Below are positions 35,222 through 36,184 of a DNA stretch of 64,000 bases, in pieces; position 1 is the stretch's first letter, and every line of letters starts with the position of its first letter. A program made the translations under genes and the position numbers. Where the stretch lies: NCBI RefSeq assembly GCF_005938105.1, contig NZ_VCPE01000008.1:62001-126000 (forward strand). The letters are read 5' to 3'. The DNA is from Brucella haematophila (GTDB taxonomy: Bacteria > Pseudomonadota > Alphaproteobacteria > Rhizobiales > Rhizobiaceae). The notes under the pieces are model-generated. The model did not search any database, was not told the origin of the DNA, and saw nothing but the letters and a program-made list of their open reading frames with translations.

Positions 35222-36184
35222 TCAACGCTCCTTGTTACTTCCTGCGACCGGGGGCGTTCCATGGGTGTGGAACGTCTCGATGGTCTTCAGACCCCAGGCC
35301 TGTCCCTTTTTGCGCTCCGACTCCGTCCAGACGATCGGCTCCCAGTCCGGCGCGAGGATCAGACGTGCACCCGAATTGGCCAATTCCACGCGATTGCCCG
35401 CCGGTTCCCAGACATAGAGAAAGAACGTGCCCTGCACGGCGTGTTTGTGCGGCCCGGTTTCGATATGGACACCATTTTGAAGGAAGATGTCGGCTGCACG
35501 CAGGATGTCTTCACGCTGATCCGTGGCATAGGTCAGATGATGCAAACGCGCATGACCGCCGCCATGTTCTTCTGTGCAGGCGAGATCGTAGGTCTTGTTG
35601 TTGATGGTGAACCACGCACCACCGATACGGCCATTATCGAGCTGGATCATCTCTGTGACACGCGACCCAAGACAGGTTTCCATGAACTGGCGGAACTCCG
35701 TCACATCGCTGCAAAGAAGATTGAGGTGATCGATCCGTCGCGGTGCTGCGCCGGTGTAGGAGCTTGCGGTGTTCTTGAGCACCGGCGCATCCGCGCCTTG
35801 TCCGGTATAGCGTACAGTATCCCAATAGATCTCGAAGACATGGCCGAACGGATCTTCAAACCGGAACGCTCGGCCATGCCCTCGATCACCCCCCACCCAA
35901 CCGATGATCTTGTATCGGCTTTCGCTGATCGCTTTCACACGGCGCTCCAGTGCTTCTGGCGACGCTACGCGATAAGCGATATGTCCAACGCCCGTGGTGT
36001 GATGCCGGGTGAGTTTGAGCGAATGGAATTCATAATCGTCCCAGGCCCGCAAATAGGCGGACTGCTCATCCATGCCGGACAGTTTCAGCCCGTAGATGCG
36101 CGTGAAAAAGTCGAGGCTTTCCTCAAACTTGTCGGAATAAACCTCGACATGCGCGAGGTGGGCAATATCAAAACTCCGCTCCAT
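35222..36184 (-). CDS. Type I (VOC) extradiol ring-cleavage dioxygenase
   Basis: 320-residue two-domain vicinal-oxygen-chelate protein of the catechol 2,3-dioxygenase type. The Fe(II) ligands appear in the catalytic C-terminal domain: His153 (RIDHLN), one of His215-His216 (LHHLTY) and Glu267 (GNRVEL); His248 (GPHKH) and Tyr257 match the acid/base and active-site positions of metapyrocatechase. AGGGAGGA five bases upstream fixes the ATG at 36184. It stands between GalB and GalC homologues where gallate or protocatechuate dioxygenase is expected, but those known enzymes (GalA, LigAB) belong to an unrelated family. The likely substrate is therefore a carboxylated catechol or gallate; plain catechol is less consistent with the next enzymes. 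Confidence 0.85.
   Translation of the reverse strand: MERSFDIAHLAHVEVYSDKFEESLDFFTRIYGLKLSGMDEQSAYLRAWDDYEFHSLKLTRHHTTGVGHIAYRVASPEALERRVKAISESRYKIIGWVGGDRGHGRAFRFEDPFGHVFEIYWDTVRYTGQGADAPVLKNTASSYTGAAPRRIDHLNLLCSDVTEFRQFMETCLGSRVTEMIQLDNGRIGGAWFTINNKTYDLACTEEHGGGHARLHHLTYATDQREDILRAADIFLQNGVHIETGPHKHAVQGTFFLYVWEPAGNRVELANSGARLILAPDWEPIVWTESERKKGQAWGLKTIETFHTHGTPPVAGSNKER

Follow-up and report, generated by a model that had tools for sequence, protein, structure and literature searches.

In the passages available from two 2014 papers, gallate dioxygenases are LigB-type enzymes (PMC4250580, PMC3962378), and DesB, LigAB and DesZ appear as related type II enzymes in those of one of them (PMC3962378). 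Here we analyzed a 64,000-nucleotide stretch of Brucella haematophila DNA (the window), in which a single minus-strand gene, running from 36184 to 35222, fills positions 35222-36184 amid homologues of galB, galC and galD. An earlier note on this DNA had placed a VOC-type extradiol dioxygenase at these coordinates, which are correct, and had proposed that it acts on gallate or protocatechuate. Sequence comparisons suggest that its product is quite probably a gallate dioxygenase with the VOC (type I extradiol) fold, which would replace GalA without being homologous to it. The proposed reaction, gallate to 4-oxalomesaconate (OMA), and the partners GalB, GalC and GalD are the same as those of GalA from Pseudomonas putida KT2440 and DesB from Sphingobium SYK-6. 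In contrast, the enzymes themselves are unrelated: the window protein belongs to the VOC (type I) enzymes, whereas GalA and DesB are members of the LigB (type II) superfamily in the passages of both papers (PMC4250580, PMC3962378). We found no type I gallate dioxygenase in the open-access literature, as covered by titles, the beginnings of abstracts and passages of PMC3962378, PMC4250580, PMC12481942 and PMC9942251.

The gene encodes a type I extradiol dioxygenase

The gene starts with an ATG codon preceded by GGAGG, and its 320-amino acid product contains the Glyoxalase/VOC domains that characterize type I extradiol dioxygenases, as the earlier note had claimed. The residues which that note listed, namely His153, His215-216, Glu267, His248 and Tyr257, are all present when the protein is numbered from its own start. 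When it was aligned with homoprotocatechuate dioxygenase (HPCD), His216 emerged as the second metal-binding histidine. The resulting 2-His-1-carboxylate metal site (His153, His216 and Glu267) is kept in all 163 aligned rows, which come from 159 loci, the window protein and three PDB chains; certain genomes contribute more than one locus. The VOC fold, the 2-His-1-Glu site, His248 and Tyr257 are common to the window protein and XylE, LapB, AphC, 3lm4 and HPCD; its sequence identity is 38% to 3lm4 and 29.5% to HPCD. The closest genus-named relative, from Ochrobactrum sp. Q0168 (Brucellaceae), is 98% identical at the protein level.

The LigB domain PF02900 gave no match in the protein at E≤0.001. 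LigB folds were also not among the structure matches listed for it, which alone excludes nothing. The structure model was built from 29 close rows and is uncertain where its predicted local distance difference test (pLDDT) values fall below 50, at residues 136-143, 208-214, 244-253, 271-277 and 294-320.

A plus-strand open frame of 318 amino acids lies antisense to the gene (35222-36184), and similar antisense frames clustered in 47 of 87 loci. These frames look like an artefact of codon usage.

The gene is linked to galB, galC and galD

Within the window, the minus-strand order is galB-VOC-galC-galD, with spacings of 29 bp and 1 bp followed by an 8-bp overlap. GalC and GalD exceed equivalog cut-offs, GalC two of them (398 vs. 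179 and 388 vs. 304.5 bits), and GalB resembles a solved chain (Table 1), in agreement with the earlier description of GalB, GalC and GalD homologues around the gene. The putative ring-cleaving gene shares one operon with galB, galC and galD, as is characteristic of the gallate (OMA) pathway.

We searched one sample of 397 genomes of the order for VOC, GalD and LigB. VOC was found at E≤1e-80 in 58 genomes, GalD above its cut-off in 94 and LigB above its cut-off in 167, including 55 with a match below E 1e-40, hereafter a strong match. All 38 genomes with a VOC protein of at least 61% identity (the VOC genomes) carry galD, compared with 94/397 overall (hypergeometric P 1.7e-27, with kinship ignored). 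At an identity of at least 60% galD was present in 43/44 genomes, and below 60% in 3/14. Among the 94 galD genomes, strong LigB matches occurred in 8 of the 38 VOC genomes versus 23 of the 56 others (Fisher P 0.048), indicating a weak mutual exclusion of VOC and strong LigB. The 117 galD loci over cut-off were also sorted by the genes lying up to 15 kb away: VOC alone was seen at 25, strong LigB alone at 15, both at 3 and neither at 74, so galD by itself cannot name the ring-cleaving enzyme.

We also scanned the best 80 of 388 relatives from named genomes by tblastn for neighboring gal, LigI, LigB and DUF1932 genes; contig ends cut some of these loci, and the relatives are not independent. Near the VOC gene, galB was found at 75 loci, galC at 78 and galD at 75, with all three at 73 and at least one at 78, which confirms the conserved association with galBCD that the earlier note had put forward as a check. 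Because a gal gene lies on the same strand within 400 bp of the VOC gene in 74 of these 80 relatives, the linkage is more than chance. LigI was present near 7 loci, a LigB relative near 4 and DUF1932 near 45. The relatives are mainly from Rhizobiales and Rhodobacterales, and Pantoea plasmids were found in another collection; a Pantoea piersonii plasmid carries galBCD, a LysR gene, a gene annotated as aromatic acid/H+ symporter and the VOC gene together.

The orthologue in Rhizobium johnstonii 3841 spans L118:9001-9963. A VOC orthologue with 78% identity is also present on plasmid pPAT9B03 of Pantoea sp. At-9b (L005, 7983-8963). It is flanked by oligopeptide-type ABC genes on one side and an FMN monooxygenase gene on the other, and no gal gene is annotated within 8 kb.

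Tyr199 marks a separate group of VOC proteins

Comparison with HPCD revealed a feature absent from the earlier note: the window protein has Tyr199 at the position of HPCD His200, the usual, though not strictly defining, second-shell acid/base histidine. It also has Thr at the HPCD Arg243 position. In the 163-row alignment, the His200 position is Tyr in 154 rows and His in 9. Tyr occurs in every locus of at least 55.9% identity and in PDB 9wgj, a chain deposited as 'Catechol 1,2-dioxygenase' that is 50.6% identical to the window protein, and His in every row of 44.3% identity or less. No paper mentioning 9WGJ turned up in the open-access literature. The second VOC gene of the window's genome (L002, 28% identity) encodes His at this position. 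A 48-row alignment that included later loci gave 41 Tyr rows, among them Thermus, Nonomuraea, Methylobacterium and Roseomonas, and 7 His rows.

The Tyr-type proteins form a separate group in the phylogeny that the earlier note had called for: a 51-row tree placed all Tyr rows in a single group of 42 (support 98/93), with the window protein inside nested groups of 31 rows (100/99) and 19 rows (100/99). The deep placement is unsure because several outer branches are long. Residues marking the same rows as Tyr199 include Arg274, Arg291, His246 and Lys137; these might bind a carboxylate group. Arg274, Arg291 and His246, together with the gal operon, distinguish the window group from type I catechol and homoprotocatechuate enzymes.

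These features bear on whether the protein could simply be a catechol or homoprotocatechuate 2,3-dioxygenase of the usual kind, placed in the gal operon by accident, which we regard as most improbable. Its best family models are indeed those of catechol 2,3-dioxygenase and of HpaD, the 3,4-dihydroxyphenylacetate 2,3-dioxygenase, and records annotate its relatives as 'catechol 2,3-dioxygenase', 'VOC family protein' or even 'bphC'. However, both scores fall below the equivalog cut-offs (288.1 vs. 320.2 bits for TIGR03211 and 196.2 vs. 321.4 bits for TIGR02295, respectively), the operon link is kept across Rhizobiales, Rhodobacterales and a Pantoea plasmid, and the protein lies in a separate group with Tyr199. 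We therefore rejected a catechol 2,3-dioxygenase or HpaD identity on the basis of the equivalog cut-offs and gene context.

In HPCD, His200 steers O2 and protons. Structures of the HPCD variants H200N, H200Q, H200E and H200C exist, as their titles show, and since this residue was studied structurally, a natural Tyr is a real departure. By analogy, Tyr199 probably takes over or changes the proton-donor or hydrogen-bond role of the usual His. A natural Tyr at a position varied in HPCD offers a direct test of what the residue must do.

Gallate is favored over protocatechuate in the window's genome

OMA arises either directly from gallate or from protocatechuate via a pyrone that LigI must hydrolyze. 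The earlier note had named a GalA or LigAB homologue doing this step elsewhere in the genome as one finding that would refute its proposal; no LigB family protein exceeded the cut-off in the window's genome, which is listed as 100% complete (best 11 bits vs. a cut-off of 26.3). A Roseomonas LigI query, which itself matches solved LigI 4d8l at E 5e-77, gave 0 matches in this genome at E≤1e-25, leaving the protocatechuate 4,5-cleavage route without this hydrolase there. The genome does encode PcaH, which scores above the cut-off of TIGR02422. Its gene adjoins another PF00775 gene, of PcaG type (L009), and is accompanied by frames that read by eye as pcaD and pcaC. Protocatechuate can therefore take the 3,4-route. 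Among the 38 VOC genomes, 36 have a PcaH above cut-off, compared with 112 of 249 genomes of the order. The two VOC genomes without PcaH over cut-off (G151 and G122) carry LigB and LigI beside galD, with the VOC gene on another contig, and thus something else can take protocatechuate there too. Gallate is accordingly favored over protocatechuate as the predicted substrate in the window's genome, where protocatechuate is disfavored by the presence of PcaH/PcaG-type genes and the failure to find LigI. Of the two substrates named in the earlier note, gallate fits and protocatechuate fits poorly here.

Gene content in other genomes is consistent with a gallate route. A tannase/feruloyl-esterase-family gene follows galD on Agrobacterium tumefaciens pAt, and in Paracoccus shandongensis (L101) one strand carries galB, VOC, galC, a tannase-family gene, galD and an MFS gene, whose product is nearest to models of aromatic-acid transporters but under their cut-offs. 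In A. vitis, a carboxylesterase gene follows galD. The Methylobacterium currus cluster, in which VOC and DUF1932 genes occur with an amidohydrolase gene whose product matches solved 4-oxalomesaconate hydratase 2gwg (E 3e-189), fits direct OMA formation.

Several observations weigh against a VOC-type gallate dioxygenase. A galD gene on the same strand and no more than 3 kb from the VOC gene was seen in only 20 of the 38 VOC genomes, and a strong LigB match occurs somewhere in eight of them. The tannase family PF07519 had no match in the window's genome at E≤1e-5. Its 13 matches in the 38 VOC genomes all fall outside a 15-kb radius of the VOC gene, which leaves two operons to carry the tannase link. 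Among solved chains, the Agrobacterium tannase-family protein is nearest to MHETase and feruloyl esterases rather than to any named tannase, and because the family is mixed, the link is support and not proof. Some LigI-like gene was found in 25 of the 38 VOC genomes, and in one of them (G131:C1:537556-539389) a LigI homologue stands 49 bp from the VOC gene in the same orientation, and a DUF1932 gene is close by. The known gallate route has no step for DUF1932. Clusters of different content also occur in the outer branches of the Tyr group. In Thermus oshimai (L166, pTHEOS01, 8956-15355), a Tyr-type VOC gene occurs with genes for PIG-L, GalC, DUF1932, DUF6282 and 4-hydroxybenzoate 3-monooxygenase. 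Roseomonas plasmids combine a Tyr-type VOC gene with LigI, a gene labeled as class III extradiol dioxygenase, and genes of Rieske/VanB type, and four loci of family f35 (L138, L139, L141 and L202) carry VOC, galB, galC and LigI without galD.

The DUF1932 genes, which lie near VOC also in Thermus and Nonomuraea, and the LigI-like genes would suit a type I protocatechuate 4,5-dioxygenase. Such an enzyme would yield 4-carboxy-2-hydroxymuconate semialdehyde, which DUF1932, as a stand-in for LigC, would convert to 2-pyrone-4,6-dicarboxylate for hydrolysis to OMA and processing by GalBCD. The 4-hydroxybenzoate hydroxylase gene likewise points to protocatechuate in Thermus oshimai, where the cluster may encode a 4,5-cleavage route for protocatechuate that relies on a VOC enzyme. 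For the window protein this route is unlikely: LigI is missing from its genome at the above threshold and stands near only 7 of the 80 named loci, and PcaH is present in this and nearly all VOC genomes. Moreover, known type I enzymes such as XylE and HPCD open 4-substituted catechols on the side adjacent to the substituent, which would not give OMA from protocatechuate. Paenibacillus PraA is a protocatechuate 2,3-dioxygenase.

The Roseomonas clusters, which hold a Rieske alpha subunit, a VanB-type reductase, LigI and an alpha/beta hydrolase, suggest a further route, in which the enzyme acts mainly as a 3-O-methylgallate dioxygenase of syringate breakdown and yields the OMA methyl ester or a pyrone. 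We consider this highly unlikely for the window protein, as the Rieske alpha subunit has no homologue near any of the 80 named loci and the LigI that a pyrone would call for had no match in the window's genome at E≤1e-25. The Roseomonas, f35 and Thermus clusters do indicate that distant members of the Tyr group may act on protocatechuate or 3-O-methylgallate. Taking the group as a whole, we lean toward the view that a type I clade marked by the His-to-Tyr change took over gallate ring cleavage at the OMA-yielding bond, with protocatechuate or 3-O-methylgallate as possible substrates of its outer branches.

Proposed mechanism and significance

As a gallate dioxygenase, the enzyme would act on gallate taken up probably through the ABC transporter divergent from galB. 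Fe(II) or Mn(II) bound to His153, His216 and Glu267 would chelate the 3,4-diol and activate O2. By analogy with HPCD, superoxide attack may give an alkylperoxo intermediate that proceeds to a lactone and its hydrolysis, opening the ring at C4-C5. Because C5 of gallate bears a hydroxyl, the predicted product is the acid OMA and not an aldehyde. OMA would then follow the known pathway, in which GalD tautomerizes it, GalB hydrates it and GalC splits the product to pyruvate and oxaloacetate. OMA is also the reported effector of an E. coli GalR/GalT reporter (PMC9942251).

Gallic acid is a building block of plant tannins. If this assignment is true, gallate dioxygenase would have a second, unrelated origin, common in Rhizobiales and Rhodobacterales and relying on a form of the HPCD mechanism that employs tyrosine, and would provide a clear case of unrelated enzymes in one pathway slot. 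Current annotation would then overlook the capacity of many plant-associated and marine Alphaproteobacteria to degrade gallate and tannins.

Neighboring genes

The features of the locus are listed in Table 1.

Table 1 Features at the gal locus of the window
Feature	Position	Strand	Remarks
VOC (type I extradiol) dioxygenase, proposed gallate dioxygenase	35222..36184	-	Metal ligands His153, His216, Glu267; Tyr199 replaces the usual second-shell His
GalB-like 4-oxalomesaconate hydratase, PIG-L family	36214..36948	-	Full-length match to solved chain 5cgz, E 4e-94
GalC/LigK-like 4-carboxy-4-hydroxy-2-oxoadipate aldolase	34549..35220	-	NF006731 and TIGR02798 above cut-off
GalD-like 4-oxalomesaconate tautomerase	33492..34556	-	NF033377, 506 vs. 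440 bits (equivalog cut-off)
LysR-family regulator, downstream of galD	32524..33459	-	Same strand as galD
Branched-chain-amino-acid-type ABC transporter (permeases, ATPases, solute-binding protein), divergent from galB	37243..41810	+	Proposed gallate uptake
LysR-type regulator with two HTH_1 domains	41881..43197	+	438 aa; homologue in 68/80 named loci (tblastn E≤1e-10)
DUF1932 NAD(P)-binding oxidoreductase	43194..44072	+	Homologue in 45/80 named loci

An ABC transporter is likewise divergent from galB at L003, L004, L085, L086, L089, L109, L112 and L116. The two HTH_1 domains of the 438-aa LysR-type regulator are 36% identical across 55 residues, and two HTH_1 stretches were also seen in its homologues at L003, L118, L014, L006 and L101. 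The DUF1932 gene accompanies VOC genes of the Tyr type in Rhizobiales, Pantoea, Thermus and Nonomuraea.

The minus-strand region 22902-32499 encodes a QuiC-like 3-dehydroshikimate dehydratase fused to an HPPD-like part (24106-26040), with a match that is full-length yet under the strict cut-off. It also holds an AroE-like gene, an ABC transporter, an SMP-30-type gene and a Phenol_MetA_deg gene, and is likely a shikimate/quinate module adjoining the gallate module. A comparable pairing of the two modules was observed in Rhizobium johnstonii 3841 (L118).
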